Assembly (NCBI GenBank): GCA_947492995.1
Contig: CANLOU010000005.1
Coordinates: forward strand, 1-64,000
Direction: 5' to 3'
DNA: 64,000 bases
Origin: an uncultured Litoreibacter sp.
Lineage (GTDB): Bacteria > Pseudomonadota > Alphaproteobacteria > Rhodobacterales > Rhodobacteraceae
Shown: piece by piece, positions 6,180 to 44,566 of the stretch
Layout: every line of letters begins with the position of its first letter
Numbering within the stretch: the first letter of the stretch is position 1
Made by a program: the position numbers and the translations under genes
Notes under the pieces: model-generated
Told to the model about the DNA's origin: nothing
The model's input: the letters and a program-made list of their open reading frames with translations, nothing else
The model's database searches: none

Positions 6180-6182
6180 TAG

Positions 6183-18174: not shown

Positions 18175-19860
18175 ATGGCAGGCAAGGGCGACGACGACAA
18201 AACGGTTTTTGGGGGTGCGCTGCCTCCTGTCAACACGCCGCCAACATCCCCGTCTGCCGGGCCTGCGCCGGGCCCCTCGGACAGCCCGTTCGCAAATGCA
18301 CCCGGTGGCGCGCCGGCACCCATAGGCCAGCCGCCGGTCAGCGGGGCAGGGGACAAGACCGTCATAGGCGGCGCGCTGCCGCCGCAAGGGCAGCACCCGT
18401 TTCCACAAACACCGCCCCAACCCGGCGGGCGCGTCGCGCCAACGGCGCCAGTGGCACCGACACCGCACGCGGCACCCTCAGGGGACACGTGGCTTGGTGG
18501 CGCATTGCCACCAGCAGGCCAGCCGCCCATTGGCGGCCAGTCCCCGATTGGGTCACCAATTGGCACGCGGCAGGAGGGGTTTTTCCCCGAAGCGCCGTCG
18601 AACCAGCCGGTTCAACAACAAGTTCCCACGCAGCAAATCCCGTTGCATCAGGCGCTCAAAGGCACTGGGCTTGGCAAGGGTGGGTCTTCGAACCCGCTGG
18701 TCGCCGCCGCCGCCAATCTGCTGATCCTGTTTGGCCGCTTGCGCACCGGTATGGTGCAGCTGGACGCCGCACCGCTGATGGATCACGTGACCCGTGAAAT
18801 GGATGCGTTTGAACGCAACGCGATTGCGGGCGGAGTGGACCCCCATATTGCACGGGTTGGCACCTATTGCCTGTGCGGCACAGCGGACGACATTGTGCAG
18901 AACCTGCCGGGCGCCGACAAATCTGTTTGGCTGCAATACTCGATGGTGGCGCGGGTGTTTAACATGCGCGATTCCGGCGTTGGCTTCTTCCAGGAGGTTG
19001 AGAAGGCGATGCAGGCCCCGGGCCAGCATTACAACCTGCTTGAGCTGATGCTGACCTGCCTGTCGCTTGGGTTTGAGGGCCGGTTCAGAACGGAAGCCAA
19101 TGGCGCGGTGCAGCTCGCCCGGTGGCGGTCGAGCATTTACGAGACCATGCGACGAGTCGAGGCGCGGCCTGACGAGGATATCTCGATCAATTGGCTGCCG
19201 GTTCTGCTGGGCGGGCGGCGGCGGTTTGGCGGTATCCCGGTGTGGGCCATCGCAGGCATCGCCGCGGCAATTGTCGTGGCCTTCTATGCGACCCTGTCGA
19301 CCTTGGTGAACCGCGACGGCGCCGCCGTGGCTGACACGCTTTATACCATGCACCCGACAAACTTTAAGGTGGCGCTTGAACGCTCCGCCGGGCCGGCATT
19401 CGTGGCAACGTCTTCGCAGCTTGACCGCATTCAGGCGGCACTTGCCCCTGAAATTGCCAATGGCAGCGTAGCGGTCGGCTCCAAGGGGGATTTCATCTTT
19501 GTGCGGGTCGGCAACCTGCTGCTTTTTGAAAGCGGGGCCGCGACGGTGAAACCGGAATTCGCAGCACTTGCGGGACGCATTGCCGAGACATTGAATGGCG
19601 AACAGGGGCCAGTGAAGATTTTGGGATATACGGACTCGATCCAGCCCTCCGGGCGTGGACAATACAAGACCAACCTGGACCTTTCCGTTGCGAGGGCTGA
19701 AGGCGTTGCCTCGGTGATCCGCGAACAGTTATTCGACAAAGAGCGGGTGACGGTTGAAGGCAAAGGTGCGGCTGATCCGATTGGCGACAATGGCACCCGC
19801 GAGGGCCGCGCTGAGAACCGCCGCGTTGAAATTCTTGTCGCGCGGGAGGGCACGTTTTGA
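18175..19860 (+). CDS. tssL: T6SS inner-membrane protein TssL with OmpA-like C-terminus
   Basis: TssL (DotU/IcmH) of 561 residues, part of the TssL-TssM membrane complex. A disordered Pro/Gly-rich N-terminus (1-170) carries three copies of a DKTVxGGALPP-type motif, with threonines at about 10, 62 and 105. A DotU cytoplasmic domain (about 175-345), one membrane helix (about 352-377) and a periplasmic OmpA-like domain (about 436-560, with GYTDS and LSVARAEGVA) that should bind peptidoglycan follow. Agrobacterium TssL is phosphorylated by PpkA on an N-terminal threonine and then bound by Fha. Here ppkA and tagH are present, so the motif threonines are prime candidates. The gene abuts tssK and overlaps tssM. 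Confidence 0.93.
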   Translation: MAGKGDDDKTVFGGALPPVNTPPTSPSAGPAPGPSDSPFANAPGGAPAPIGQPPVSGAGDKTVIGGALPPQGQHPFPQTPPQPGGRVAPTAPVAPTPHAAPSGDTWLGGALPPAGQPPIGGQSPIGSPIGTRQEGFFPEAPSNQPVQQQVPTQQIPLHQALKGTGLGKGGSSNPLVAAAANLLILFGRLRTGMVQLDAAPLMDHVTREMDAFERNAIAGGVDPHIARVGTYCLCGTADDIVQNLPGADKSVWLQYSMVARVFNMRDSGVGFFQEVEKAMQAPGQHYNLLELMLTCLSLGFEGRFRTEANGAVQLARWRSSIYETMRRVEARPDEDISINWLPVLLGGRRRFGGIPVWAIAGIAAAIVVAFYATLSTLVNRDGAAVADTLYTMHPTNFKVALERSAGPAFVATSSQLDRIQAALAPEIANGSVAVGSKGDFIFVRVGNLLLFESGAATVKPEFAALAGRIAETLNGEQGPVKILGYTDSIQPSGRGQYKTNLDLSVARAEGVASVIREQLFDKERVTVEGKGAADPIGDNGTREGRAENRRVEILVAREGTF

Positions 19861-22800
19861 GAGTGCTCGGGCTTTTCAGCATCCGCTATCATAGCTGGAT
19901 GCGCATCCCGCTGATCCTGCTTGGGATCATTGGTTTTGTGGCCGCCGTCTGGATCGGCTTCCCGATGACGGGCATCGCCGTGATGGCCACGGTTTGGCTG
20001 CGGGCAACCGTCATTGGCTCCGTGTTGGGGCTGTTCTTCATCATCTGGTTGGTAAAGTTCATCCGCCGCCGCAAAGCCGCGAAAGCGTTGGAAGAAGCGG
20101 TTATTCCGGTTGAGCCTGAGGGCGACGGCAAGGTCTTGGCCGAACGCATGTCGGAGGCGCTGACCACGCTGAAGAAATCGAGCGGCGGCAGCTACCTGTA
20201 TGACCTGCCGTGGTATGTCATCATTGGCCCGCCGGGGGCGGGCAAGACAACCGCACTGGCCAATTCGGGGATCGAGTTCCCGCTGGCGGGCGACGCGATG
20301 TCCGGGCTGGAAGGCTTTGGCGGGACACGCTACTGCGATTGGTGGTTTGCCGAAGACGCGATCATGATCGACACGGCGGGGCGCTACACCACGCAGGACA
20401 GCGACGCCACGGCGGACAGCGCAAGCTGGGAAAGCTTCCTTGCGCTGCTGAAGAAGTCGCGTCCCAAGCAGCCGATCAACGGGATCATTCTGGCGTTTTC
20501 GGTCGAGGACATGATGAAGGACTCGCCTGAGGCCTTGGCGCAGCACGCGGAAACCGTGCGGACGCGGCTGGCTGAGGTGCATGAGACGCTGAAGATCGAC
20601 TTCCCGGTTTATGTGCTGTTCACCAAGTCCGACCTGATTTCGGGGTTCCGGGAGTATTTCAGCAGCTTCAGCCTGAACCGGCGCAAGGGCGTTTGGGGTG
20701 TGACCTTCCAGACCAAGGACCGCAAGACGCTGACCCATGAGGCCGTGCCGCAGGAATTTGACCTGCTGGTGTCGCGCCTGTCAGACGAGGTTATTGACCG
20801 CCTGAACGAGGAGCCCGACGGCATCGCGCGGATCGCGATTTTCGGGCTGCCGGGGCAGATGGCGCTGATGCGCGACAATGTCAGCGACTTCCTGCGCCGC
20901 GTGTTTGAGCCGACACGCTACAAGACCAACGCCATTTTGCGAGGGTTCTATTTCACCTCCGGAACGCAAGAAGGCACGCCCATTGACCAAGTGCTGGGCG
21001 CGATGTCGCGGATTGGGGAGGGCGTGGGATCCATCCAACCGGGGTTTATGTCGGGCAAGGGCAAGAGCTTCTTCATCCATGACCTGCTGAAGCGGGTCAT
21101 TTTTGAGGAACGCGACTGGGTTTCACATGACCGCAAGGCTGTGCGGCGGTCCTCCATTTTGCGCGGCGTTGCTACGACTGTGATAGTGCTTGCGACGGCC
21201 GGCCTCTTGGGCGCGTTTGGGTACAGCTACTGGAAGAACGCGGAGCTGGTGCAAACGGCGGCAATCGAGGCGGATGAATACGCCCGCGAGGCGCAGGACG
21301 AGATCCGGCGCGAGCTGATTGATGACACCGACCTGCGTGCCGTGCTGCCCTATCTGGAGGACCTGCGGTCCATGCCAGCGGGTTACGGCGACAGCCAAGA
21401 GGCCGCGTTGCTGGAGGGCGTTGGCCTTGGCCAGCGCAGACGCGTTTCTGCGGCGGCGGAGGCGTCTTATTCCGATGCATTGGAAAAGATGTTGCGACCC
21501 CGATTGATCCTCGCGCTTGAGCGGCAGATGCCGCAAATTCTGCGTGATGGGGAGACAACAGACGTCTACCGCGCCTTGAAAGTTTACATGCTTCTGGGCG
21601 GGCAGGGCGGCAAGACTGACGACGCTGCGGTGCTGGCCTATTTCGACGAGGAATGGCGCGCGGCGTTCACGGGTCGCTCGGGCATTGATACGCGCGAGCA
21701 GCTGACCCGGCATTTGACCGCCATGCTTGAGCTGGACGACACACGAGAGTTGCTGGTTGATATTGATGCGGCCACAGTGAGCGCTGCGCGGCAGGCGATC
21801 GTGCAACTGCCGCTGGTCGATCAAGGCTATGCGCTGATTATGGACGGTGCGGACCAAGCGGGCCTTCCCGATTGGGTGCTGACGGAGCGTACGGGGCCAA
21901 GTTCCACGCAGGTATTTACAACGCGCAACGGTGCAAATCTGGAAGAGGTGCGAGTACCTGCCGTGTTCACCTATGAAGGCTTCTGGGGCTATTTCTTCCC
22001 GCAGCTTGAACAGGTTGGCAACAAGCTGCGCGAGGACCAGTGGGTGCTGGGCGAGGACGGCGAGCGCGTCGATTTCGATGCGCAGATTGATCGGTTGGAC
22101 CGTGCCTTGATGGAGCGCTATCGTGGTGAATTCCGCACGGCATGGTTTGATATGTTTGGCCAGATTGGCCTTGCCAATATGTCCGCCGATACGCAGCGGT
22201 ATCAGGCTTTGGGGGCTGCGGCCTCTGCCACGGCGTCGCCGTTGTTGATGCTGGTCAAAGAGGTCGATGCCGAGACGAAGCTGACGCGCGAATTGGAAGG
22301 TCTGGAAGGGCTGACACCGGAGGCGTTGGTCTCCGGTGACATTGGCGCGAACGTCTCCAGCCAAGCCATTCAGCGGATGAAGTCGCGCACCAGTGGCGTG
22401 CAGCGCATCTTGTTTGACGCCATTGCGGGCAGTGGAAAATCGGGGGGCCGTGTGGCGTCTGCCGGTGGGGGCGGGGAAGACAACAGCCTGACGCGGCCTA
22501 TTGAGCGGATCGAAGAAGAGTTCACCATGTGGCACCAGTTGCTGGCGGGCGAGGCGGGGCAGCGCCCCATCGACGCGCTTTTGGGCAACCTTGGCAGCAT
22601 CTGGTCGAACTTGCGATTGTCGTCCTCTAACCCTGACCAATCCGCCGCGCTGATGCCGCAGCTGCTCAACAACCTGACGCAGAACAATTCGCAGCTTCCG
22701 CCGACTTTGGCCTCGCTGGTCAATGACGCGGAAAGCAATTTCCGCAAGGGCGCGACGGACGCCAATATCGAAACGATGAACCGCGCGTTGACCAATCAGA

Positions 22801-23462
22801 TCACCTATTTCTGCCGCGAAACGATTGCCCCATCCTTCCCGTTTGCGCAGTCGTCGCGCAGCCTGTCGATGTCGAATTTCGGGAAGTTTTTCGGCCCCGG
22901 CGGGGATATGGACCGGTTCTTCACCGAGTATCTGAACCCCTATGTGGAACGCACCAATAACGGGTTGGCGTACCGGCCTGACAGCCCGCTGGCGGGACGT
23001 CTGTCCACCAACACACTCAAGCAGTTTGAGCGTGCTGAGCGCATCCGGCAGGCGTTCTTCGCAGGCGGCAGCACGACCCCGCAGGTGGAGATCACGGTGG
23101 CGCATCGCGACAACCATTCCTCGATTGAAAGCGTGCTGCTGATTATCAATGACGAGCAAATCCGGTCTGTCCGCGGGCAGCTGCCCAAGACCATTGTCTG
23201 GCCGGGCACCGGGACCTCGACCGTGCTGCAGTTTGAGCCGCCGCTGGACCGCGAAAGCACGCTTTACGTGCGGGGCTCGGCGTGGACCTTTATCGAATTC
23301 ATGGGCAAAGCCGTCTCTCGCCAACAGCAAGGTGACACCACCCGCGCGGTGTTTGCATTGGGTGGCCGGTCGGTGACCTATGACTTTACCATCAATGCGA
23401 TCACCAACCCCTTCACCATGCGCGAATTGCGGGAGTTCGAATGCCCGCAGAGCCTGGATTGA
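19857..23462 (+). CDS. tssM: T6SS inner-membrane ATPase-like protein TssM (IcmF)
   Basis: TssM of 1,201 residues, the core of the trans-envelope complex. Two N-terminal helices (about 16-37 and 48-66) precede a cytoplasmic NTPase-like domain with an intact Walker A GPPGAGKTT (124-132), around DLPWYVIIGPP. A third helix lies at about 434-455, then a large periplasmic domain. I chose the TTG at 19857, which overlaps the tssL stop (TTGA), because GGAGG at 19845-19849 is correctly spaced; GTG at 19863 is possible. No tssJ lipoprotein gene is nearby, so the outer-membrane anchor may be missing, remote, or replaced by the OmpA-like domain of TssL. Confidence 0.94.
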   Translation: MRVLGLFSIRYHSWMRIPLILLGIIGFVAAVWIGFPMTGIAVMATVWLRATVIGSVLGLFFIIWLVKFIRRRKAAKALEEAVIPVEPEGDGKVLAERMSEALTTLKKSSGGSYLYDLPWYVIIGPPGAGKTTALANSGIEFPLAGDAMSGLEGFGGTRYCDWWFAEDAIMIDTAGRYTTQDSDATADSASWESFLALLKKSRPKQPINGIILAFSVEDMMKDSPEALAQHAETVRTRLAEVHETLKIDFPVYVLFTKSDLISGFREYFSSFSLNRRKGVWGVTFQTKDRKTLTHEAVPQEFDLLVSRLSDEVIDRLNEEPDGIARIAIFGLPGQMALMRDNVSDFLRRVFEPTRYKTNAILRGFYFTSGTQEGTPIDQVLGAMSRIGEGVGSIQPGFMSGKGKSFFIHDLLKRVIFEERDWVSHDRKAVRRSSILRGVATTVIVLATAGLLGAFGYSYWKNAELVQTAAIEADEYAREAQDEIRRELIDDTDLRAVLPYLEDLRSMPAGYGDSQEAALLEGVGLGQRRRVSAAAEASYSDALEKMLRPRLILALERQMPQILRDGETTDVYRALKVYMLLGGQGGKTDDAAVLAYFDEEWRAAFTGRSGIDTREQLTRHLTAMLELDDTRELLVDIDAATVSAARQAIVQLPLVDQGYALIMDGADQAGLPDWVLTERTGPSSTQVFTTRNGANLEEVRVPAVFTYEGFWGYFFPQLEQVGNKLREDQWVLGEDGERVDFDAQIDRLDRALMERYRGEFRTAWFDMFGQIGLANMSADTQRYQALGAAASATASPLLMLVKEVDAETKLTRELEGLEGLTPEALVSGDIGANVSSQAIQRMKSRTSGVQRILFDAIAGSGKSGGRVASAGGGGEDNSLTRPIERIEEEFTMWHQLLAGEAGQRPIDALLGNLGSIWSNLRLSSSNPDQSAALMPQLLNNLTQNNSQLPPTLASLVNDAESNFRKGATDANIETMNRALTNQITYFCRETIAPSFPFAQSSRSLSMSNFGKFFGPGGDMDRFFTEYLNPYVERTNNGLAYRPDSPLAGRLSTNTLKQFERAERIRQAFFAGGSTTPQVEITVAHRDNHSSIESVLLIINDEQIRSVRGQLPKTIVWPGTGTSTVLQFEPPLDRESTLYVRGSAWTFIEFMGKAVSRQQQGDTTRAVFALGGRSVTYDFTINAITNPFTMRELREFECPQSLD

Positions 23463-23465
23463 TCC

Positions 23466-24173
23466 GTGTCTGAAGTGGCCGAACCCTCTGCTGGCTTCTT
23501 CGGCAAGCATCCGGCCTTTGGCGACTTTGTTGGCCATGGCTTGTCTGGCACTGTGCAAATGGCGATGCAGGACTGGCTGACGGGCATGCTGGCGCAGGCC
23601 AAGGCGATCATGGGCGATGACTGGCAGGCAGTTTATGACGCGTCGCGGCCGATCCGGTTTTGGGTTGGGGCGGACGTCTTTGGCACCCAGATCCTGCGTG
23701 GCGTGATCTGCCCCAGCCATGACAAGGTGGGCCGCCGCTACCCGTTTGTGCTGGTGCAGGAAAACGCACCTGTGGCCCCGCCGCCGCTGGATACGGACCA
23801 GACGTTTCACGCAGGGGCGGAGGCCTTTGCCAGAGTTGCGGTTGAACGCACCCCGGAGCTGTCACGCGACATCATGGCGACCTCGTCGCATGATCGCAAA
23901 GAAGAAGCGCCGCTTGATCCGGCGATGTTTTGGGCGACGAACCCCGGCACTGATGTGGCGGGATTGCTGGGGGTCACGGCGGCCACCGACCATGCCCGCG
24001 CGGCGGCCAACCGAAGCTATTGGTGGGTGGCGGGCACGGGGCTTCGGGCCTCTGCCGTCCTGGCCTGCGAAGGGCCGCTGCAAGCAGACGGCCTGGCATG
24101 GTTATTGCGTGGTACGAAGGTCGAAGAAGACCAGATAACAGACCCCATCAAAGAGGGCGCGGACAGTGATTGA
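23466..24173 (+). CDS. tagF: T6SS post-translational regulator TagF
   Basis: TagF-family protein, 235 residues. The N-terminal [17 protein letters not shown] (about 10-26) is the family hallmark, followed by [16 protein letters not shown]-like residues. In Pseudomonas and Agrobacterium TagF represses T6SS assembly independently of or alongside PpkA, by binding Fha. It starts with GTG three bases after tssM and overlaps pppA. In some bacteria TagF is fused to PppA; here they are separate, overlapping genes. Confidence 0.88.
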
Positions 24174-24921
24174 AAACGAATATTTCCGGTTCCAGACCGG
24201 GCAGGCCACCGACACCGGCAAGGTCCGCGACCACAACGAGGACAGCCATCTGTCGCGCCCCGATTTCGGGCTGTGGCTGGTGGCTGACGGCATGGGTGGG
24301 CATGACGCGGGCGACTTTGCCAGCCAGACGATCACGGCGGAGGCGGCCTCGGTCGGTATGTCGTCATCACTGCAAGACCTTCAAGCGCGGTTCATGGAGC
24401 GTCTGACGCGCGCGCATGGCCTGATCTTGCAGCACGCAGCCGAGCTGGGAACCGGCACGGTCGGCGCGACGCTTGTGACTTTGCTGATCCATGAAGACCA
24501 ATATGCCTGCATCTGGTCAGGCGACAGCCGCATCTATTTGATGCGTGGCGGTGAATTGGTGCAGCTGACCCGTGACCACACCGAGGTTCAGCACCTGCTG
24601 GACACGGGTGCGATTTCTCCGTCAGAGGCTGAAAGCTGGCCGCGCAAGAACGTCATCACGAGGGCCATTGGGGTCTCGGACGTGCCGCATTGCGATGTTG
24701 TCACCGGAACGTTGGAAGCGGGGGACACCTTTGTGATGTGTTCGGACGGTCTGACCGAACATTTGGGCGACCATGACATTGCGTCCTTTGTGGCCGCTGG
24801 TGAAGATGTTGGCGTGCAAATTATCTGCAACGAAATGATCGGCGAGACCCTCACCCGAGGTGCCAAAGACAATGTGACGGCAATTGTTGTGCGATGCGTG
24901 GCCCGCGAGGAGCAGGGTTAA
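24166..24921 (+). CDS. pppA: PP2C-type phosphatase PppA of the T6SS phosphorylation pathway
   Basis: Serine/threonine phosphatase, 251 residues, that reverses PpkA phosphorylation. PP2C metal-binding motifs are all present: VRDHNEDS (about 20-27), [31 protein letters not shown] and KDNVTAIVV. The GTG start at 24166 overlaps the tagF stop by eight bases. ppkA follows after three bases, so kinase and phosphatase are co-expressed. Confidence 0.92.
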
Positions 24922-24924
24922 CTG

Positions 24925-26934
24925 ATGGCCGACGAGGAAGACGACAACCTGGTTCCGGTCCCTGAAAGCACCTCGGTGCCGCAGCCTGACGGTGCGGGCG
25001 AGGGTTTGGAGAAGACCGACACGCTTGTCGGCAAAATGATCAACAACAACTACACCGTCCATCAGTTGATAAGCGCGGGCGGCATGGGCGAAGTGTATCG
25101 CGGCGAGGGCGTGTTGGGCGACCCCGTGGCGATCAAAATCGTGCTTGAGACGCTGGCCAATGACGAGAAGGTGCTGACGCTGTTCAAACGCGAAGCCCGC
25201 ATTCTGGCGCAGCTGAACGACGACGCCATTGTGCGATATTTCAACTTTGTCAGAGACGCTGAGCTGGACCGTTATTGCCTGATAATGGAGTTCATTGACG
25301 GCATCCCGCTGAACGACATGGTGTCTGACAAGGGCCCGATTAGCGTGGATCAGGCCAAGCGGCTGATGCGCCGTCTGGCGCGGGGTTTGGACAAGGCGCA
25401 CAAGCGTGAAGTGACCCACCGCGACTTGTCGCCTGACAACGTCATGCTGCCGGAAGGGGATGTAGACAAGGCTGTGTTGATCGACTTTGGCATCGCCAAA
25501 TCGACGGAGATGACAGAAGGCACCTTGCACGGGCAATTTGCCGGTAAGTTCAAATATATTTCGCCCGAACAGCTGGGGCATTTTGACGGCGTCATCAGCC
25601 CCCGCACAGATGTCTACGGGATGGCGCTGCTGGTGGCCGCGGCCGTGCGCGGCAGCGCCATTGATATGGGGACGTCGATTGTTGAGGCGGTGAATGCGCG
25701 CCGTGAAATCCCGGACTTGAGCGATGTTGATCCAGCGTTGCGCCCGTTGCTGGCGCATATGTTGGAACCTGACCCCGATGCCCGCCCGGCGAGCATGCGC
25801 GATGTTGCCCGCATGGTGGATCAGCCCGACCTGGTTCCTGCGAAATACCGGGGCGAAGACCCCGACAAAACGATGATTGCGCGGCCTTTACCGCCGGTCG
25901 ACGAGACTGTTATCGCGCCACTTTCGCAAGCGCCGTCTGGGTTGCAACGCCCACCAGGGGCGGTGACAGCGACCGCCGTGCCCGCCACTGCCGCGCCGGT
26001 TACGGCGACGGGCCTTCAGGACGCGTCTCACAGCCCGTTTGGCGGGCCACCATCCGCAGCCATTGGTACATTGCCGCCTGTACCGGAGGTGACCGATATT
26101 GGCGCACCGATCGTGCCTGAAAAAAAGCGCGGCAAGGGCCTGCTGGTGTTTGGTTTGATCGTGGCAATAGCTGCAGGGGGCGGCTGGTACGCCATGCAGC
26201 AAGGGTTGATTGGCGGTACCGACGTGGCCGAAACTCCTGAGACGCCGCCTGATCCGGAAACACCCACTGAGCCGGACCCCGTGGCCCAGATGCCCGCGCC
26301 GGATGCGGCGACGCGTGAGGGGTTCCTGGCGGGCTACAAGGCGGATGTCGGATGCACCTATGCCAGCCGAATTTCATCTGGTCTGGACGCAGGCAAGTTG
26401 GAGGTTTTGGCCGGCTCGGAGGGTGCGTTGCCAGCCTTGCCGCAGGCCTATCAGTCCAGTTTTGGGGCGGAGCCTGCCACGGTTGAAAGGCTTGTAAGCG
26501 CTGAGCAATGCGCGGCACTGGACTTGGTGCGCAGCCTGCAGGGGCGCGAAGCGATCCCGCCAGTTCTGACGTTGGATACTGATAGTGTCAAAAGCGGAGG
26601 ATCGGTCGCTGGCCGCGTGCGCGATGTGCGTGGGCGGACGGTTTGGATGTTCCTCGTCTCCACGGCTGGCGGGGTGTATAACCTGTCGCCGCGTCTGGAA
26701 GGTCAGGCGGATGGGTCCTACACTTTTGGGTTCGGTATGAGCCTTGGTGCAGGCTCCGAGCCGTCACCGCAATTGATTGTGACGCTTGCTTCAGAGGCGC
26801 CATTGCTTAGTGCTGCGGCGGCGACGGATGGCTCTGATGCGTCGGAAATCCTGCCCCTGGTCCTTACGGAAATTGTTGGGCGTGGCGGCACTGCCGCCGC
26901 AGATATTGGCTGGCTGCAACTCGAAGCGGAATAG
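24925..26934 (+). CDS. ppkA: T6SS threonine kinase PpkA with periplasmic sensor domain
   Basis: Transmembrane Hanks-type kinase of 669 residues. The kinase domain (about 43-300) has all key residues: glycine loop ISAGGMGEVYRG, K71, HRDLSPDN (165-172) and DFG (187-189). The juxtamembrane linker holds DKTMIARPLPP (T316) and DETVIAPL (T328), like the TssL repeats, so autophosphorylation there is plausible. One helix spans about 404-424. The periplasmic region (430-669) contains Cys477 and Cys529 with QCAALDLVR, and the same domain ends the TonB-like protein encoded convergently, one base beyond its stop. That shared domain is probably the signal-sensing part. By analogy with other T6SS, it would phosphorylate TssL and/or TagH. 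Confidence 0.9.
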   Translation: MADEEDDNLVPVPESTSVPQPDGAGEGLEKTDTLVGKMINNNYTVHQLISAGGMGEVYRGEGVLGDPVAIKIVLETLANDEKVLTLFKREARILAQLNDDAIVRYFNFVRDAELDRYCLIMEFIDGIPLNDMVSDKGPISVDQAKRLMRRLARGLDKAHKREVTHRDLSPDNVMLPEGDVDKAVLIDFGIAKSTEMTEGTLHGQFAGKFKYISPEQLGHFDGVISPRTDVYGMALLVAAAVRGSAIDMGTSIVEAVNARREIPDLSDVDPALRPLLAHMLEPDPDARPASMRDVARMVDQPDLVPAKYRGEDPDKTMIARPLPPVDETVIAPLSQAPSGLQRPPGAVTATAVPATAAPVTATGLQDASHSPFGGPPSAAIGTLPPVPEVTDIGAPIVPEKKRGKGLLVFGLIVAIAAGGGWYAMQQGLIGGTDVAETPETPPDPETPTEPDPVAQMPAPDAATREGFLAGYKADVGCTYASRISSGLDAGKLEVLAGSEGALPALPQAYQSSFGAEPATVERLVSAEQCAALDLVRSLQGREAIPPVLTLDTDSVKSGGSVAGRVRDVRGRTVWMFLVSTAGGVYNLSPRLEGQADGSYTFGFGMSLGAGSEPSPQLIVTLASEAPLLSAAAATDGSDASEILPLVLTEIVGRGGTAAADIGWLQLEAE

Positions 26935-26935
26935 G

Positions 26936-28144
26936 TCAGCGCAGATCAAATGGCACCACAGCCATGATCGCCCGCGTTCCAATTTCTGCCTCCAACGCCG
27001 GGAAAAAGTCCGACGCCAACCGCCCGGCAAATTGAGTGACAGCTGCCGGTCGTCCTTGTGTGGCCAAAGCCACAAGCAATTGGCTGGTATCACGTGCCGC
27101 CCCGTCGCGGGTCATAGGCACTTCGAACGCGGCGCGGCCGGATTCGAAACGGACAAAGCGGCGCAGATCCTGCACGACACCATTGTCATCAATCAAAAGC
27201 AGGGATGTGTAGTACCCAGCCACATTTTCGATACTGCCGCGCAGCTCATTGCCGGAATTGATGAGCGTGGCCTGCAACTTTAGCGGGACCTTAAACGTCG
27301 GGTAGTTTGGGCGCGCGCGGACAAAATCCAGCGCGGCGCATTGCCGGTTGTCGATGACGATTGAGCGCTGATCGACTTGCAGGTCGGGGTCGTTCAACAC
27401 CTCGCGGGTAAAGTTCGCCATCGTGCGGTCACGGTCGGAGACCAGCACGACAAGAGGATTGCCCTGAGCGCCCTGACTTTGCGGCAGAGCCACCAAACAC
27501 GGATCACCAAGGCGATTTCGGATGCGTTCAACCAGCTCCAAAAGCTCCAGCTGTTCGGGAGATGGCGGTGGGGCAGGCGGAGCGATCGCAGGTTGTACCT
27601 GAGACTGGGGCACGACCGAAACGGGCGCAATCCGGGTCGCCGTTTGCGTGGCGGCGGTTGTACCGCTGGACACGGGCGCTATGCGTTCGGGCGCCAAGGT
27701 CGCGCTGCCCTGCAACACGGTGCCAGCGTCCGGCGTGATCGGGTTCAGCTGTGTTGGGCTGAGCGCCGCGATGGCTTCGGGTTCCGGTTCTTGGGTCAGT
27801 GTTTCGGGTTCGGGCGATGCCGCCTCGATGGTTTCGGGCTCTGGAGTGAGTGTCTCGGCCTCCGGCGTTGCCGCTTCGAGGGTTTCCGGTTCCAGCCCTT
27901 CGCCAATGACCTCGTCGGGAGTGGCCTGCGGGATTGTTTCGGGGACAAGGGTCTCCGCTTGCTCTTCCTCGAACACGATGTTGGAGATCGAGATTTCAGG
28001 AAACGCCATTGGCGGGGGGGGAGCCAAAGCCCGCCACGGGACCAAGTCGAACGCATATAGGAACAGGCCTGCATGCACGACCATAGACAACCCCAGCGCC
28101 ATGCCCCAATGGCTGGCTCGTTCGGGATGCGGCTGCAAAATCAT
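26936..28144 (-). CDS. TonB-like inner-membrane protein with PpkA-type periplasmic domain
   Basis: A 402-residue protein with TonB architecture at its front. A single N-terminal helix (about 13-34) contains S20-x3-H24, matching the Ser16/His20 pair needed in E. coli TonB. A long Pro/Glu-rich spacer (40-195, repeated PEPET) could span the periplasm. Instead of a TonB C-terminal domain, residues about 205-402 match the periplasmic domain of PpkA: Cys216 and Cys269 are 53 residues apart (52 in PpkA) and QCAALDFVR parallels QCAALDLVR. It is last of a four-gene exbB-exbD-exbD operon, with ATGA overlap. I infer that an Exb motor acts on this domain, perhaps sharing ligand or partner with PpkA. This combination is unknown to me. 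Confidence 0.7.
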   Translation of the reverse strand: MILQPHPERASHWGMALGLSMVVHAGLFLYAFDLVPWRALAPPPPMAFPEISISNIVFEEEQAETLVPETIPQATPDEVIGEGLEPETLEAATPEAETLTPEPETIEAASPEPETLTQEPEPEAIAALSPTQLNPITPDAGTVLQGSATLAPERIAPVSSGTTAATQTATRIAPVSVVPQSQVQPAIAPPAPPPSPEQLELLELVERIRNRLGDPCLVALPQSQGAQGNPLVVLVSDRDRTMANFTREVLNDPDLQVDQRSIVIDNRQCAALDFVRARPNYPTFKVPLKLQATLINSGNELRGSIENVAGYYTSLLLIDDNGVVQDLRRFVRFESGRAAFEVPMTRDGAARDTSQLLVALATQGRPAAVTQFAGRLASDFFPALEAEIGTRAIMAVVPFDLR

Positions 28145-28545
28145 TGGCCCGACCGCCTGTGCAAGGTGACAAGGCGGATTTCGGTATCCACCAGTTCGGG
28201 CCGGTTAATCACTTGTATCAGGCTGTTGGCTGGCGCTTCGCGGTTGATAAGCAGGTGCAGCACCACGGGTTGCGGCAGGTTTTGCAACGCGACATCCAGC
28301 AGGTCGGGGGCCACGTCATTGCCGTTGAGATCCCACGACCCGTCGCTGTTAATCACCAATATGGGCGAAGGCAGTTGGTCCAACGGCAATTCAGAGGTTT
28401 GAGAGAGTTCAAGATCGGGCCCAACCGGGTTCAGCAGCCTGCCGGTTGCCAGAAAGAAGAAGATCAACAGCAATACGATGTTCACGATGGCCAGCGACAC
28501 GTCCAGCTGGATAGGCTTTTTGGGGCGGGGCAGGGGCTGTGTCAT
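28141..28545 (-). CDS. ExbD/TolR-like protein lacking the membrane aspartate (ExbD1)
   Basis: A 134-residue ExbD/TolR family protein: short cytoplasmic N-terminus, one helix (about 17-34, ending LLLIFFFLAT) and a periplasmic domain. In canonical ExbD an Asp in the helix (Asp25 in E. coli) carries the proton. Aligning on the IFF triplet puts V21 or N22 at that place; the nearest Asp is D15, at the membrane edge. It is therefore probably a structural partner of ExbD2. Overlaps with both neighbours (ATGA) show tight coupling. Confidence 0.75.
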   Translation of the reverse strand: MTQPLPRPKKPIQLDVSLAIVNIVLLLIFFFLATGRLLNPVGPDLELSQTSELPLDQLPSPILVINSDGSWDLNGNDVAPDLLDVALQNLPQPVVLHLLINREAPANSLIQVINRPELVDTEIRLVTLHRRSGQ

Positions 28546-28979
28546 GGTGCCCCCCTGCTGACGATTTGCACCGAGGCGATATTGGCCGCTGCCAGAATTT
28601 CCAGTACGGTGACGATATCTTGCACCTGCGCCCTTCCAGACGAGATCAGCAACACCCGAGGGGTGTCAGCGGCCACCAAGGCCTGCGCCAGCTGCGGCAG
28701 AGACTCGAAGCCAAATCGCTGCCCGTTTGCGACGATTTCGCCGTTTTCGATGGTCCAGCTTGCCGCGGCTTCGCCGGGTTGCTCAACCGGCGTTTCTTCA
28801 TTGCCTGAAGCGGGGCCGGTGCCGGGTCCGCTTTGCAGTGTGAGCAGCGAATACGGAGTGAGCGACGAGGTCAGCATAAAGAAGATCAACAGCTGGAACA
28901 TCGCGTCGGCCAACGGTGTCAGCGCAAACGTATAGCGCCGTTTGGAGCGGGGAAGCTCCCGTATGCGCCGCGCGGCCAT
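28542..28979 (-). CDS. ExbD/TolR-like protein with conserved aspartate (ExbD2)
   Basis: A 145-residue ExbD/TolR family protein. The single helix (about 19-38) reads ALTPLADAMFQLLIFFML with Asp25 in the canonical place, so it can take part in proton flow. A Pro/Glu-rich linker and a periplasmic domain (about 75-145) follow. It lies seven bases after the exbB-like gene and overlaps exbD1. ExbB5-ExbD2 motors hold two ExbD chains, so an ExbD1-ExbD2 heterodimer is a natural guess. Confidence 0.82.
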   Translation of the reverse strand: MAARRIRELPRSKRRYTFALTPLADAMFQLLIFFMLTSSLTPYSLLTLQSGPGTGPASGNEETPVEQPGEAAASWTIENGEIVANGQRFGFESLPQLAQALVAADTPRVLLISSGRAQVQDIVTVLEILAAANIASVQIVSRGAP

Positions 28980-28986
28980 TGCTGGC

Positions 28987-29619
28987 CTAGCGCGCGGCGG
29001 CGGAGGTGTCGACGCGGCCGTGGATCGCGGCGGAGATCAACGTTTCGATGGATTGGCGCTCCCCCTCGATCCGGCTTTCAAACCAGTTGGCGATGAAGAA
29101 CGTCACCAGCGCGATCGCAAGGCCCACAGCCGTGGTGGTCAGTGCGGTCCAGATGCCGCCTGCCAGCAAGGCGGGGTCAACCGCGCCTTGGCTTGTCGAC
29201 AGCGTGCCGAACGCGTCAATCATCCCAATCACCGTTCCCAAAAGGCCAAGCATCGGGGCGGCCTGCACCACGGCTTCAAGCAGGCGCATCCGTTGCGACA
29301 TGGCTGCCAGTTCCACGAGGGCCGTTTGGCGGCCCAATTCTTCGGCGTAGTCCTGATCGTTGGGCCGCGCGCGCAGCCCGGACAACACCGCCTGCAACAC
29401 GCGGGCCAGAACGGAGTCGCGGGTGCCCGCAGCGCGGATGGCTTCCTCGGGCCGCCCGTTGAGCCAATTGTCGATTATGGTTTCGGCCTTGGCCTTGCGC
29501 CCGACCCCCAGTTTGCCGAACTGGATGATTTTGTAGAAGGTCACGGTCACGGCCATGATCGACAACACCGCGAGGGCGGCGAATACGACAATTGTTGTTG
29601 GGTCAAAGGCAGACAGCAT
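28987..29619 (-). CDS. ExbB/TolQ/MotA-type ion channel subunit
   Basis: ExbB/TolQ family protein of 210 residues, the pentameric channel part of an ion-driven motor. It has three helices (about 10-30, 120-142 and 158-180). The conserved core MLGLLGTVIGMIDAF (about 123-137) and ALTTTAVGLAIALVTFFIANWF (start about 160) are diagnostic. GGAG lies six bases before the ATG. It opens the exbB-exbD2-exbD1-TonB-like operon. Nothing nearby encodes an outer-membrane receptor or Pal/TolA/TolB, so neither classical Ton nor Tol function fits well. Confidence 0.87.
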   Translation of the reverse strand: MLSAFDPTTIVVFAALAVLSIMAVTVTFYKIIQFGKLGVGRKAKAETIIDNWLNGRPEEAIRAAGTRDSVLARVLQAVLSGLRARPNDQDYAEELGRQTALVELAAMSQRMRLLEAVVQAAPMLGLLGTVIGMIDAFGTLSTSQGAVDPALLAGGIWTALTTTAVGLAIALVTFFIANWFESRIEGERQSIETLISAAIHGRVDTSAAAR

Positions 29620-29666: not shown

Positions 29667-30098
29667 TCAGGTCCCGAACTGGATATCCGTGCGCGAGCTG
29701 GTGGCCAGCCCCGACAAACAAAAGTCGGCGGACTGGCCGTCGGCCAAGCTGCATGCGGCAACGTCGTTCACGATAATGCGTGAGATGTCGGTGCAGCTTT
29801 GGTCGGCGAGATCAAAAAGGACAATGCGGGTTTTTCCGTCGGTCAGGGCCCCAAAGCCCAGCACCAGAATGCGCGTCACAACGCCGTTCGCGTCAAACAC
29901 GCCGACTTGGTAGTCGGTCTGAGACAGGTCTTGCCCGCTGCGGTTGGTCGCGACATAGGTCAGACGGCATCCGCCAGTATCGGTGTTGGCGGCATTGTTC
30001 AGCTCTAGGCTGAAACGCGCGTCCGCATCCTGAGCGGCGGCCCCAAAGGCAGCAAGCGATGCGGCGATCAAGCCGGCGGAAAGGGTTCGAAAAACCAT
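29667..30098 (-). CDS. Secreted four-cysteine protein of unknown function
   Basis: I do not recognise this family. I chose the ATG at 30098 (GGGGA seven bases upstream); it gives 143 residues beginning with a clear signal peptide cut after AAAQ (about residue 23). The mature part resembles a small periplasmic beta-sandwich (CRLTYVATNRSGQDL, QVGVFDANGVVTRILVLGFG). Four cysteines follow the signal peptide, possibly two disulfides. It precedes exbB in the same direction and probably serves the Exb/TonB-like unit or the T6SS envelope complex. Confidence 0.65.
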   Translation of the reverse strand: MVFRTLSAGLIAASLAAFGAAAQDADARFSLELNNAANTDTGGCRLTYVATNRSGQDLSQTDYQVGVFDANGVVTRILVLGFGALTDGKTRIVLFDLADQSCTDISRIIVNDVAACSLADGQSADFCLSGLATSSRTDIQFGT

Positions 30099-30207
30099 GA
30101 GCACATCCCCAAAAATACAAGGAGCCCAAGACAAATTATTCAGCACGTCACGGGCAGTTCAGTTGTTGCCAGTTGGGACCATCTCGCTATGAAGTGTCAA
30201 CAGGGGA

Positions 30208-31316: not shown

Positions 31317-32855
31317 ATGCGTCCTATGGGTTTTAGGGTTATGTACAAACGCCTTCTATTTTCGATGGCCACCTGCCTGATCTGCGCGACGCCTTTGGCG
31401 GCGCAGGAACGCTTGGCCTATGTTATAGGCAATGGTTCCGGCGCACCTGCTGAGGATGCCTTATCGGTCTCTCGCGCCTTGCTGGGCCTTGGTTTTGACG
31501 TGATCCGAAGACAAGACGTGACACCCCAAACCTTGCCCTTGGGGAACCGCGCGGCCCGCACTGTGGCTTTGTATTTCTCCGGCCCAACGGGCGTCGAAGA
31601 TGACAGCACCATGATGATGGGACAAGGCGGCGCTGGTTGGTCGATGATCGACACAGCGCAGCAGTTCCGCGCATCCGGCGCAGACCAGGTGCTCGTGTTT
31701 GTGCAGACTTGCCACAGCGCGGAGGCCACGACAGCGCCTCTGCCAGATGAATCTTTGGATGGTATATTCATTGCCCTTTCCACGGATCCGGCGACCGGCT
31801 GCGTGACTGATGGACAGACCCGTTTCACGGACCGCCTTCTGGCGGCACTGGCAACGCCTGATATGGATATAGAGCAAGCCCTCAGCGCGTCCGAGGGGGA
31901 GGGCATTGTTCTTTCCGGGCTCGAAGACAGTCTTGTGCTTTGGGAAACGTCGGATGAGAAGGTGACCTTGTCCCAAGATGATATGGCCGTTCTTGACGGC
32001 CTAGCCCCAAAAGACCGCGACCGCATGCGCGCCCTGTGGGAGAGCGCGGGGCTTATGGGTGACGGAAGCAACACGGCCACTGCAGTCAACACGGTGCAGA
32101 ATGAAACCATCGTTCTGACCGGGCGGGTGGCACCCGTTGACATGGGTGCCGTGATTGCGCCCAGCAATGTTACTGCGGTGACACCCGTTTCTTTCACGCC
32201 GGACCCGACCACGACAACGTCGACGGGGGTTCAGATTTTCAGCGCGGCACCCCGGTCACAAGAGGCAGCAATCCCAACCGCCGCGGGGCTGCCGCGGCCT
32301 TCGATTATTGTGGGTCGCATCCAATCTGACGAATCTACATCGACCGCGACACAGACCGGTGCGTTGACCGGGACCGCGCTTGATGGCTCTGGTTTCGAGG
32401 CGCGTCAGACCATTCGTAGCCAAGACAGCGAGCTGTACGCCCAACTTGTTGGAAGCGGTGCGTTTGATCCGCCACAAGCCCAGCTGGCCGTTGCTTTGCA
32501 GACGGAACTGAAACGGATGGGCTGCTATACTGGTGGCATTGATGGCGATTGGGGCAGAGGGTCGCAGGGCTCCGTTGATCGTTACTTCCAGCAGATCGGG
32601 GAAACACCAACATCGCGTGACGCCACGATTGATCTTTTCCGCCAAATCGCGATGAAAGACGATGTGGTATGCCCTCGTGTTGTCCAAGCCCGCGCCGCGC
32701 AGCCGCGCGCCACGACGCGGACAACGACCAGAGCGACGACCCGCGCCACCACGCAGCGTCGTACAACAACGGCCGCTCAACCGAAGGCTGCTGCCAAACC
32801 GGCAGCGACTGGCAAGATCAATCCTAACCGCCTGGGCACTGGCGTCTTCCGCTAG
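31317..32855 (+). CDS. Secreted caspase-like (C14) domain protein with peptidoglycan-binding domain
   Basis: A 512-residue protein with signal peptide (start may be the ATG at 31341, MYKRLLFSMATCLICATPLAAQ). Residues about 32-210 have a caspase/metacaspase fold pattern: RLAYVIGNG, LGFDVIRRQDV, ALYFSGP and VFVQTCHSAE. The cysteine of the CHS motif (132) is kept, but the usual catalytic His of the YxSGHG box is replaced (SGPTG, 88-92), so it may be a pseudo-enzyme. After a linker, a peptidoglycan-binding-type domain (about 385-445, LQTELKRMGCYTGGIDGDWG) and a Thr/Arg-rich tail follow. It is periplasmic and probably tied to cell-wall handling with the next gene. Confidence 0.75.
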   Translation: MRPMGFRVMYKRLLFSMATCLICATPLAAQERLAYVIGNGSGAPAEDALSVSRALLGLGFDVIRRQDVTPQTLPLGNRAARTVALYFSGPTGVEDDSTMMMGQGGAGWSMIDTAQQFRASGADQVLVFVQTCHSAEATTAPLPDESLDGIFIALSTDPATGCVTDGQTRFTDRLLAALATPDMDIEQALSASEGEGIVLSGLEDSLVLWETSDEKVTLSQDDMAVLDGLAPKDRDRMRALWESAGLMGDGSNTATAVNTVQNETIVLTGRVAPVDMGAVIAPSNVTAVTPVSFTPDPTTTTSTGVQIFSAAPRSQEAAIPTAAGLPRPSIIVGRIQSDESTSTATQTGALTGTALDGSGFEARQTIRSQDSELYAQLVGSGAFDPPQAQLAVALQTELKRMGCYTGGIDGDWGRGSQGSVDRYFQQIGETPTSRDATIDLFRQIAMKDDVVCPRVVQARAAQPRATTRTTTRATTRATTQRRTTTAAQPKAAAKPAATGKINPNRLGTGVFR

Positions 32856-32870
32856 TAGGGGAAACGCGTG

Positions 32871-35186
32871 ATGAAGGTCGATCCCAGCTTTCAGCAATCC
32901 CGCAAACATGCGCGCGCGCGCCGGAATAAACGCCTGGCTGCGCGATCTGGTGTCGGGCTGCTTGTCGTGGCCCTTGTGGCGTTTCCAGTCGCAATTTTCA
33001 CAAATCTTCCCAGCCGGGTAGCCGGATGGTTTGGCCCGTCTGAGGACGATTTTACCCTTGTTCAGGTCGAGCAGGATTTCGATGTGGCCCCGGTGGTGCA
33101 GTCCAATGTGTTCATTGATATTGCCGGAGATCCCACCATTCTGCGCTTTGCCGAGGTCGATCCGGACGCCGAGGATCGCCAAAAGATATTGGAAGGCCCA
33201 GGCATACTGGACATTTCTCGTTTCGGGCTCCCGCAGGCGGAAAGACTGGTTATTGTGCGCGATAGTCTGGTGGTCAAAGAGACGCAGCTGATGACGACCT
33301 TGCCGTCTTCGCGCGAGGATTTCGCTTTCTTCCAAGCCCAGCGTAACCGCGCGTTGGCCGACCCGCTGAGCCAGTTGGAAGACGCCGCCGTAGAAGAGCT
33401 TGAAGCTCTTGATGGGTCCGTTGAGCTTGGCGACCTGACCGACAGCTACGGCGCCTCACTTGAAACAGGAGAGACCGCCGACGCTGACGAAGTTGCCAAA
33501 ACCGAGGTCGAGAACACGACCTCGGTAACTTACGTAAAACCGGAACGCGAGCGCATTGAGCTGTTCAAAGACAAGATCGTGCAAATCGAACTAGACCGAA
33601 CACTGGCGAGCCTAATGGCTGAGAACAAGTTGTCAGAGGCCGACACTGAGGGGGTTTTGGGGTTGTTTCCTACGGCCGAAAACTTGAAGCGCGGTTCGAT
33701 TATTGCGTTACGCACTGCGCCCATCGGCAGCTCTGCGCAACTGATGCAGCTGTCTTATTACACGCCTGAAGGTTATGTCGGCACCGTTGCGCGGTCAAAA
33801 TCTGGGGCTTACTTGCCTGCCTCTGATCCGTGGCTGAAAGACAACCTGATGGCGCTTTCTACTTTGGGCAGGGACGGGACGGACATCGAGACCACGGACG
33901 GAAAGTTCCGTCTGCTTGACGCAGTCTATTCTGCGGCGATCCGAAATGGGGTGCCCACAACATTGGTCGGCGAGATCGTGGCAATGATGTCCAAGACCCA
34001 TGACTTGGACAAGTTAGCCGTGGAGGGCGACGAAGTCACAATCGCCTTCGCCCGCCAGCACGGCCCCAACGGGACGCTGGCAGGGCAAGTCATGTTCGCA
34101 GGCATTCGTGGACCATCTGGCACGTTGCCGTGCTATTTTATCCCAGACCGGGCGGAGGGCGGGTTTAAATGTTTCGCGCCAGGCAGGGCAGCGCCGCAAG
34201 GAGGCGGGGCGTTTACCTCGCCAGTCACAGGAATTCTGACGTCTAAATTTGGGCCCCGCAAACACCCGATCCACAAAGTTGTTCGGCTGCATGCCGGGGT
34301 GGACTGGGCGGCCCCAACAGGCACGCCAGTCTACGCGGTTGCCCCGGGCCAAATCACGTTGGCAGGCGATGGGAAGGGCTATGGCAACCTGGTTATTATC
34401 AAGCATCCTGGCGGCTTGGAAACGCGTTACGCCCACCTCAATAAATTTGCACCCACTGCCAAAAAGGGAGCTTTGGTCGCGCAGGGTGAAGTCATCGGTT
34501 ACGTCGGCACCACTGGCCGGTCTACCGGGCCGCATTTGCACTTTGAAACGCGTCAAGATGGCAAACCAATTGACCCTATGCCGCTGCTGTCGGGTGGGCA
34601 GGTGGTGGTGGCTTCAGGTGCCGTGGACGCACTGGTCCAGCAAATCATCAAGGTTGAAAGTGCGGGCAATCCGAATGCCAAAAACAGCCGGTCAACAGCG
34701 ACCGGTCTTGGGCAATTCATCGAAAGCACGTGGCTGCGCATGATGCGCAGCTACCGGCCAGAACTGGTTGCCACCATGTCGCGACAGGATCTGTTGAACC
34801 TGCGCCGCGACCCGACGATCAGCCGTGATATGGTTACAAAGCTGGCGCAGGAAAACGAGGCGTTCCTGCGTGCGCGCGGCCATCAGTCAACGCCCGGCCG
34901 GTTGTATCTGGCCCACTTCCTTGGGCCTGCGGGCGCAAATACCGTGCTGCGTGCGAACAATGAACGCACGATCCTTGATGTCATGGGGGCGGGGGTCGTC
35001 AAGGCCAACCCATTCCTGCGAAAATACACGGTCGCGGATTTGAAAGCATGGGCTGACCGAAAAATGCGCAGACGCGGGAGTGGGGCCACGACCGTGGTTG
35101 CGGCCGCTCCACCGCCCGCGCCCATTGAGCCCGAGGTAAAGCTGTACAAAGATATTGTGGACCAGATCCTGCGGGAAACGAGCTAG
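32871..35186 (+). CDS. Membrane-anchored M23 endopeptidase / lytic transglycosylase fusion
   Basis: A 771-residue peptidoglycan hydrolase with two catalytic units. An N-terminal helix (about 24-42) anchors it to the inner membrane. The M23 domain (about 447-570) has H474-x3-D478 and H555-x-H557, as in active zinc endopeptidases. A lysozyme-like transglycosylase domain (about 585-680) has the catalytic Glu596 in KVESAGNPNAKN followed by ATGLGQFIESTW. GGGGA is well spaced for the ATG at 32871; GTG at 32868 is possible. Placed inside a T6SS locus it could open the wall for TssLM insertion, or act as a remodelling factor; effector use is less likely given the anchor. It converges with the gene at 35188. 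Confidence 0.85.
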   Translation: MKVDPSFQQSRKHARARRNKRLAARSGVGLLVVALVAFPVAIFTNLPSRVAGWFGPSEDDFTLVQVEQDFDVAPVVQSNVFIDIAGDPTILRFAEVDPDAEDRQKILEGPGILDISRFGLPQAERLVIVRDSLVVKETQLMTTLPSSREDFAFFQAQRNRALADPLSQLEDAAVEELEALDGSVELGDLTDSYGASLETGETADADEVAKTEVENTTSVTYVKPERERIELFKDKIVQIELDRTLASLMAENKLSEADTEGVLGLFPTAENLKRGSIIALRTAPIGSSAQLMQLSYYTPEGYVGTVARSKSGAYLPASDPWLKDNLMALSTLGRDGTDIETTDGKFRLLDAVYSAAIRNGVPTTLVGEIVAMMSKTHDLDKLAVEGDEVTIAFARQHGPNGTLAGQVMFAGIRGPSGTLPCYFIPDRAEGGFKCFAPGRAAPQGGGAFTSPVTGILTSKFGPRKHPIHKVVRLHAGVDWAAPTGTPVYAVAPGQITLAGDGKGYGNLVIIKHPGGLETRYAHLNKFAPTAKKGALVAQGEVIGYVGTTGRSTGPHLHFETRQDGKPIDPMPLLSGGQVVVASGAVDALVQQIIKVESAGNPNAKNSRSTATGLGQFIESTWLRMMRSYRPELVATMSRQDLLNLRRDPTISRDMVTKLAQENEAFLRARGHQSTPGRLYLAHFLGPAGANTVLRANNERTILDVMGAGVVKANPFLRKYTVADLKAWADRKMRRRGSGATTVVAAAPPPAPIEPEVKLYKDIVDQILRETS

Positions 35187-38312: not shown

Positions 38313-38329
38313 TTAAAATATCCTATTCA

Positions 38330-41843: not shown

Positions 41844-41871
41844 GCGGCAGCTGCAGTGTCAGATTTGATGT

Positions 41872-41903
41872 AAAAAAGGCCGGCGAATAATAATCGCCGG
41901 CCT
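41872..41903 (-). terminator. Strong intrinsic terminator between hcp and tssE
   Basis: On the minus strand a perfect 10-bp stem (41894-41903 with 41877-41886, core GGCCGGCGA) with a 7-nt AT loop is followed by six T residues (41877-41872). It sits 27 bases after the hcp stop. It would set hcp mRNA well above the downstream baseplate genes. Confidence 0.88.
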
Positions 41904-41929
41904 CAAAATTATTCCCAAAGGGGAGAGGC

Positions 41930-42427: not shown

Positions 42428-42481
42428 TAGGTAAGCTCCTTGTTACGGCATTGGGTAGTTTTAATGGGTAGCGCTTTGCGC

Positions 42482-43969: not shown

Positions 43970-43970
43970 C

Positions 43971-44489: not shown

Positions 44490-44566
44490 TCTCCTTAGTT
44501 GGGCTCAGTGAACCCGCGACGCTGGGTCAAGTCAACAGTTTGTGGTTAATCTTAACGGTATGAGGG

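Follow-up and report, generated by a model that had tools for sequence, protein, structure and literature searches.

We have analysed a 64,000-nucleotide stretch of DNA from an uncultured Litoreibacter sp. of the order Rhodobacterales (assembly GCA_947492995.1, contig CANLOU010000005.1, positions 1 to 64,000 of the forward strand; hereafter the window), in which an operon for an ExbB/ExbD-type motor and a TonB-like stalk protein, termed TonBL, lies within a type VI secretion system (T6SS) cluster, tail to tail with the gene for the T6SS Ser/Thr kinase PpkA. The C-terminus of TonBL is, on comparison of sequences, homologous to the periplasmic domain of PpkA, and a motor whose stalk shares a domain with PpkA is found in two T6SS lineages of the order. 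Dedication of the motor to the T6SS is well supported. We propose, at roughly even chances of being correct, that a T6SS-dedicated, proton-driven motor feeds PpkA through a copy of the kinase's own periplasmic domain. The motor family and the kinase are both known; what is new here is their union, with a new client.

The domain in question comprises ~205 residues at the C-terminus of TonBL and is recognised by no Pfam or NCBIfam model. The TonBL and PpkA C-termini of the window align by BLASTP at E 1e-8, and profile-profile alignment of the two domains with hhalign covers 201 columns (99.7%, E 1.3e-26), compared with E 0.77 when the second profile is reversed as a control. An invariant Cys pair is common to both alignments (32 of 36 TonB-like rows and 27 of 29 PpkA rows at hand, near-copies being omitted). 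A preliminary description of this DNA had proposed that TonBL shares its C-terminus with the periplasmic part of PpkA and had called for comparison of the two; at the level of sequence the sharing is borne out by a strong match over the whole domain, Cys pair included. Specificity was examined in 80 named loci obtained by scanning a species collection (192 pattern matches, of which 87 were confirmed and 80 kept, some cut by contig ends). The relatives found in this way carry genus names of the Rhodobacterales, and for one of them, Leisingera, a taxonomy line gives that order. Among the 11,232 frames of these loci, those matching either domain profile at E 1e-3 were 80 TonB-like frames, 48 PpkAs and nothing else, PpkA itself being present in 50 of the 80.

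The TonBL domain (215 residues modelled, 26939-27583, minus strand) is predicted by AlphaFold2 with a pLDDT of 94.5 and a pTM of 0.89 to fold as helix-strand-strand-helix-strand-helix followed by a beta-sandwich, the invariant Cys pair lying in the alpha/beta part; its homologue in PpkA occupies 26287-26931 on the plus strand. The helix-strand-strand-helix-strand start of the model agrees with the BON topology. Neither of the two window-type domains has a BON or DUF4384 match in Pfam. Foldseek comparison of the model with the PDB gave mostly Ig-like beta-sandwiches over part of its length and other weak partial matches; among the 50 matches listed, the TM-score by query was at most 0.34, one match reached E <= 0.001 and none was a TonB domain. 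Searching the PDB with the domain's sequence returned nothing informative.

TonBL is encoded by the last gene of a five-gene operon on the minus strand, in the order o29667, exbB, exbD1, exbD2, tonB-like. The preliminary description had listed the latter four, and these are present where it placed them: exbB at 28987-29619, exbD1 at 28542-28979, exbD2 at 28141-28545 and tonB-like at 26936-28144. It had also called all four overlapping, which holds for exbD1/exbD2 and exbD2/tonB-like (4 nt each) but not for exbB and exbD1, which are 7 nt apart. As it stated, ppkA ends one base away, at 26934, the TonB-like ORF ending at 26936. The genes found in addition to travel with the four are o29667 upstream and a divergent pair at 31317-32855 and 32868-35186. 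The first operon gene, o29667 (29667-30146, minus strand), encodes a small protein with a start that resembles a signal peptide by eye, the true start probably lying inside the ORF; it has no Pfam match above cut-off and no NCBIfam match. Among the 80 named loci, relatives of o29667 are present in 75, exbB in 79, and both exbDs and tonB-like in all 80.

The channel protein, of 210 aa, matches MotA_ExbB (PF01618) above cut-off at E 2.8e-28. At the ExbB site that probably corresponds to Glu176 of E. coli, the residue is Thr, Val or Ser in the 76 rows, out of 79, that a scan matched, the other three having Thr by eye. ExbD1 (PF02472, E 1.7e-14) retains the transmembrane Asp (TPLADAMFQLL), as do the copies in 79 of 80 loci in a motif scan, the remaining copy being truncated. 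ExbD2 matches PF02472 below the cut-off (E 8e-5, 23.1 bits against 25.4) and has Asn at the Asp site (AIVNIVLLL), as in all 80 loci in the same kind of scan. TonBL, of 402 aa, combines an anchor helix, a Pro/Glu-rich spacer and the PpkA-type domain. The S-x3-H motif ascribed to its helix in the preliminary description is read in the sequence as LSMVVHAG; 66 of 81 rows from the 80 loci have it within a hydrophobic segment, and by eye the His is kept in the helix in 10 of the 12 unmatched rows listed. The absence of a TonB C-terminal domain was likewise confirmed, as TonBL has no Pfam match up to E 1 and hence no TonB_C match, nor has it any match in NCBIfam.

The Asp/Asn pair of ExbDs is real and not unique to the T6SS motor, and was rejected as its hallmark. 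The same genomes contain further ExbB-ExbD-ExbD loci, and of 20 that were fetched, all 11 in which two ExbDs were found have Asp then Asn, the motif scan having found one ExbD in the remaining 9, and the motor of the second T6SS lineage, described below, has Asp in both ExbD1 (9 loci) and ExbD2 (8 loci). The asymmetric pair in these other loci (L202, L203, L206-L208, L211-L213, L215, L219 and L221) is worth a study of its own.

In public annotation the operon is visible on a Leisingera plasmid as a MotA/TolQ/ExbB family protein, ExbD, ExbD and a serine/threonine protein kinase. The last of these is TonBL, encoded by a gene of 1,224 bp (NZ_CP083557.1, 71222-72445; L230). Window TonBL has no kinase match in Pfam, and the kinase label presumably derives from the PpkA-type end. 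Relatives of TonBL are found on 16 plasmid records, all typed as non-mobilizable, and in 14 of them the protein is called hypothetical.

Occurrence of the operon corresponds with that of the T6SS. Profile searches were made in 292 genomes of the order, with PF05943 for tssC and a threshold of E 1e-60 for PpkA. TonBL matches were obtained in 37 genomes, 36 after G216 was dropped, a genome without tssC in which the match lies in a frame with four stops, while tssC was found in 80 and PpkA in 36. PpkA and tssC are each present in 35 of the 36 TonBL genomes; the exception, G281, lacks both and carries the operon at the beginning of a contig of 11 kb, next to a frame of the fha type. Counting the motors of both T6SS lineages, 62 of 80 genomes with tssC have a motor, compared with 1 of 212 without it (Fisher p 1e-45, phylogeny ignored; 2 of 212 if G216 is included). 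In a search of 385 genomes of the class the domain was found in 2, both among the five listed under one family; the other genomes gave no match. Linkage gives a similar picture: a T6SS gene, ppkA counted, lies within 10 kb of the operon in 69 of the 80 named loci, one of the other 11 having only an fha frame, and in 46 the distance from the TonBL end to ppkA is no more than 1.5 kb. Thus, the claim that the operon goes with the T6SS and not with TonB-dependent receptors, of which the source genome has no plug, is upheld, and the outcome that would have told against it, an operon mostly occurring away from T6SS loci, was looked for in the co-occurrence search and did not appear.

Other T6SSs of the order, here called the second lineage, have a related operon beside tssA consisting of o29667, exbB, two exbDs and a gene for a TonB-like protein with a different end. 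A profile of this protein matches in 29 of 292 genomes (E 1e-10), all of which have tssC, and the match is at most 8 kb from tssC in 28, lying on another contig in one. In a tree, the ExbBs of the first lineage form one group (support 99/100) and those of the second a separate group (96/90); a TolQ row forms a long branch and the relation of the groups to one another is unsettled in the tree. In the 3 of 8 members scanned, the second-lineage TonB-like end matches DUF4384 above cut-off (E 7e-8 to 3e-10) and BON_like below it (E 0.004-0.011), and DUF4384 is also matched in 4 of 6 second-lineage PpkAs, with a best E of 2e-4. Aligned as profiles, the second-lineage TonB-like end and the PpkAs of such T6SSs, together with two relatives, match at 95.5% (E 1.6e-8, 194 columns, 8 versus 6 sequences), compared with E 0.09 for the reversed control. 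The pairing of domains seen in the window is wider than the preliminary description noted, as it recurs in a second T6SS lineage. When the second-lineage TonB-like profile was run against 279 genomes of the class, four matches were obtained (L226-L229). The best two of the four, both matched at their C-termini, are a kinase-like protein with a PppA-like gene as neighbour (L226), whose kinase part was recognised by eye and is unscored by the PpkA model, and a PpkA inside a T6SS cluster (L227; 321 bits with the PpkA model); the matched proteins of L228 and L229 do not look like kinases. Judging by these matches, the domain is apparently a more general feature of PpkA, one that the motor stalk seems to have acquired. 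In many second-lineage T6SSs a second TssC-type match, mostly of 140-170 bits, falls in a large frame ~13-16 kb from tssC, and many of these frames have ~1000-1800 residues (L182, L185, L186 and L188).

Divergence of the motor and the kinase was compared as tree distances over 39 of 44 loci, 5 near-copies having been dropped. The TonBL and PpkA domains show the highest correlation of five comparisons (r 0.91), the values for the TonBL domain with ExbB, the kinase domain, TssM and PppA being 0.87, 0.86, 0.79 and 0.77, respectively. When TssM, the kinase domain and PppA are controlled for, the two domains retain a partial r of 0.60, a value reached in 0 of 2000 permutations, and it falls to 0.48 with ExbB added.

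In the proposed mechanism, ExbB with ExbD1 and ExbD2 would draw on the proton motive force to set the TonB-like stalk in motion, and the stalk would present its copy of PpkA's periplasmic domain. This copy would either bind the domain of PpkA directly or compete with it for a common partner, for which o29667 and the periplasmic parts of TssM/TssL are candidates. Motion of the stalk would set how far PpkA associates, phosphorylates Fha and starts T6SS assembly, so that control of PpkA by the motor, whichever its sign, would tie T6SS firing to whether the envelope is energised or intact. The motor would act as an input to PpkA, a role that falls to TagQRST in Pseudomonas, to RtkS in Serratia and to TssW in Acidovorax. 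In the accessible portions of the papers concerned, TagQRST acts on PpkA (PMC3953482; PMC11881912), RtkS binds the periplasmic domain of PpkA (PMC6082577) and TssW, an outer-membrane protein, binds PpkA and TssM (PMC12607579). Like the motor as proposed, all three are envelope proteins acting on or binding PpkA; unlike it, and as compared by these descriptions only, none is described in those portions as an ExbB/ExbD motor or as carrying PpkA's domain. No TagQRST-like gene was recognised in Pfam scans of the cluster genes, which included no TagQRST-specific models and left the rest of the genome unsearched. Among the titles and abstract openings listed from the open-licence literature, no paper joins ExbB/ExbD to the T6SS in this way.

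Support for a motor acting on PpkA comes from the homology of the TonBL and PpkA domains, the occurrence of the pairing in two lineages, the C-terminal matches in L226 and L227, the adjacency of ppkA, the co-occurrence of TonBL with PpkA and of the motors with tssC, the co-divergence of the two domains, the transmembrane Asp kept in ExbD1, the lack of a receptor plug in the source genome and the reading of that genome's other two MotA_ExbB proteins as TolQ and MotA. It also comes from genome G149, in which a relative of o29667 remains beside ppkA (L069) where the search for TonBL found nothing, and from the binding of other envelope proteins to the periplasmic part of PpkA in Serratia and Acidovorax, as far as the portions seen of those papers describe it (PMC6082577; PMC12607579).

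A number of observations weigh against this proposal. G149 has PpkA of the window type and tssC, and motor genes were not found beside its ppkA; an ExbB-type match on its contig C15 stands beside a TssL-model frame, probably a hit through an OmpA domain, and no ExbD match adjoins it. In G032, PpkA carries a related domain and neither motor was found. PpkA can thus do without the motor, and the idea that it strictly depends on it was rejected. Position is also not constant, as the second-lineage operon lies beside tssA, and in several Paracoccus loci the operon adjoins clpV and not ppkA. In four genomes of one genus (g15; G015, G019, G114 and G152) the module, with o31317 and the M23 gene of the divergent pair, is separated from the main tssC by at least ~1.2 Mb and from any tssC match by at least 0.49 Mb. 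The link between the domains of the two lineages is weak: PpkA matches PpkA across lineages at E 1.8e-5, but TonB-like matches TonB-like at only E 0.038, the second-lineage TonB-like end matches first-lineage PpkA at E 0.012 and second-lineage PpkA matches the first-lineage TonB-like end at E 0.086; we read the domains of both lineages as probably one family. The permutation test of co-divergence does not model phylogeny, and the PpkA domain co-diverges with ExbB as well (partial r 0.78 given TssM); therefore, the signal marks a module, which diverges together with the periplasmic part of the kinase, and not one contact. Two further observations, the inverse relation of the motor to TssJ and the peptidoglycan genes that travel with the operon, are accounted for no less well by a structural role.

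These last observations lead to the main rival, a possible but rather doubtful explanation in our estimate, in which the motor and stalk form a powered envelope link that helps the T6SS membrane complex through peptidoglycan to the outer membrane, replacing TssJ and acting with the hydrolase and caspase-like protein of the divergent pair; the shared domain would then be a membrane-complex adaptor that PpkA also uses. TssJ (PF12790) was found in 16 of 79 genomes with tssC, the source genome being excluded, and these comprise 4 of 61 motor-bearing versus 12 of 18 motor-less genomes (Fisher p 4.6e-7, phylogeny ignored); the sole TssJ match of the source genome sits with its other T6SS. The TssL of the window has an OmpA domain, which also fits an envelope link. 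Of the divergent pair, o31317 (31317-32855, plus strand) encodes an exported protein with caspase-like relatives, in which the His of the dyad is lost and the C-terminus resembles a peptidoglycan-binding region by eye; the window copy has no convincing Pfam match, while a second-lineage homologue matches Peptidase_C14 at E 6e-37. The second gene (32868-35186, plus strand) encodes a peptidoglycan hydrolase with M23 (PF01551, E 1.3e-34) and SLT (PF01464, E 2.9e-6) domains. Of the 80 named loci, 70 have a relative of o31317 near the operon and 60 a relative of the hydrolase gene, and both still accompany the operon where it stands away from the T6SS (L063-L066). However, a pure linker needs no copy of the kinase's own domain, and the TssJ pattern, whose counts are uncorrected for phylogeny, may reflect a handful of events along T6SS subtypes, TssJ and the motor then merely marking such subtypes. 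Four genomes (G041, G068, G103 and G128) have both TssJ and the second-lineage motor, and TssJ went unmatched in five motor-less genomes besides G149, so that a T6SS without TssJ need not have the motor. A variant that we consider improbable gives the stalk a negative role, keeping PpkA or a partner inactive under the proton motive force and freeing it when attack depolarises the membrane, as a trigger of retaliation. The same domain evidence speaks for it as for motor input to PpkA, of which it is a special case, and H1-T6SS assembly in Pseudomonas is described, in the part of the paper available, as proceeding through PpkA upon outer-membrane damage (PMC11881912).

An ordinary TonB system that serves receptors, and that stands beside the T6SS by chance or through plasmid hitch-hiking, is an explanation to which we give scarcely any credence. 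The ExbB-ExbD-ExbD order and the Asp/Asn pair do occur in other loci, one of which (L165) has a TonB_C protein by Pfam, and receptor plugs, at least one each, were detected in 26 of 37 genomes tested. No plug was found in the other 11, however, the source genome among them, and because the source genome has none, receptor transport is untenable as the purpose there. Together with the lack of TonB_C and the linkage to the T6SS, in genome counts as in the named loci, this led us to reject a receptor-serving system. Plain hitch-hiking on plasmids was also rejected, as in G015 and G152 the operon is on contigs of >4 Mb, probably chromosomes.

Judged from its sequence features, the operon resembles an ExbBD-TonB or TolQRA machine and falls outside the TonB system in the sense of one with TonB_C and receptors. 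It shares with ExbB-ExbD-TonB the ExbB channel, an ExbD with a transmembrane Asp, an anchor helix with His and a Pro-rich spacer, and differs in having a PpkA-type domain instead of TonB_C, no plug in the genome and a tie to the T6SS. With Tol-Pal (TolQRA) it shares the motor superfamily, a stalk that could span the envelope and peptidoglycan genes nearby, whereas the source genome has a separate locus reading tolQ-tolR-tolA, and no TolA C-terminal, TolB or Pal match was found by Pfam in the operon or the divergent pair. Indeed, the source genome has three MotA_ExbB proteins, the motor ExbB and two that read as TolQ, with TolR and TolA, and as MotA. The motor of type IX secretion, GldLM, is likened by description only: it is also a proton-dependent motor that drives a secretion system, though a different one. 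A proton-dependent motor of a secretion system is described in one paper (PMC8986121).

The T6SS cluster of the window spans 16.8-47.4 kb. At lower coordinates than the operon, on the plus strand, are TssK, TssL and TssM (16840-23462, by Pfam), TagF (23466-24173; PF09867, E 1.4e-28), the PP2C phosphatase PppA (24166-24921; PF00481, E 5e-18) and PpkA (24925-26934; 669 aa, PF00069, E 1.1e-34), which adjoins PppA and TagF. Beyond the divergent pair, on the minus strand, lie ClpV/TssH (an AAA protein named from context), TssG, TssF, TssE, Hcp, TssC, TssB and TssA (35670-45943), followed by Fha (46053-47396), which has an FHA domain and T6SS_FHA_C. The contig, of 105,743 bases, is probably a plasmid because it has ParA- and ParB-like genes (window 4869-7295, ParB_N scoring just below cut-off). 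A further T6SS of the source genome differs from that of the window and has a TssJ match (G000 C3 50000-69999, L178). The genome's three VgrG-type matches (PF05954) all lie outside the window.

Several features of these clusters are recorded in their own right. Upstream of tssK, at 7670-16747 on the plus strand, is an ORF of 3025 residues with four bactofilin stretches (PF04519, E 9e-40), and frames matching it are near T6SS genes in L062, L069, L070 (weakly) and L072; a giant bactofilin-repeat protein within a T6SS cluster is unexplained. The exported caspase-like proteins that travel with the motor form a pseudo-caspase series, in which the His/Cys dyad is kept in an aligned second-lineage copy and some first-lineage copies and the His is lost in the window copy and several relatives (a second-lineage example is L169, 18482-19969). 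In a crude scan of the M23 proteins, both motifs were found in 38 of 65 rows and neither in 27.

Three different inputs to PpkA are named in the portions seen of the literature cited above; the motor proposed here would be a fourth, of another sort. Tentatively, and with some doubt, we extend the proposal to most Rhodobacterales T6SSs, in each of which a dedicated motor of the ExbB/ExbD/TonB family would provide the coupling to the proton motive force. The stalk would carry a duplicate of the kinase's sensor domain, so that one type of domain, on kinase and motor alike, would gate assembly by the energy or mechanics of the envelope, and in many of these systems the motor would also take over the outer-membrane link of TssJ. 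The motor may then explain how T6SSs without TssJ reach the outer membrane. If the motor does feed PpkA, a large order of marine and soil bacteria would have its T6SS firing coupled directly to membrane energisation, the role of the PpkA periplasmic domain would become testable by simple mutants, and the T6SS would join the secretion systems that have a dedicated ion-driven motor.

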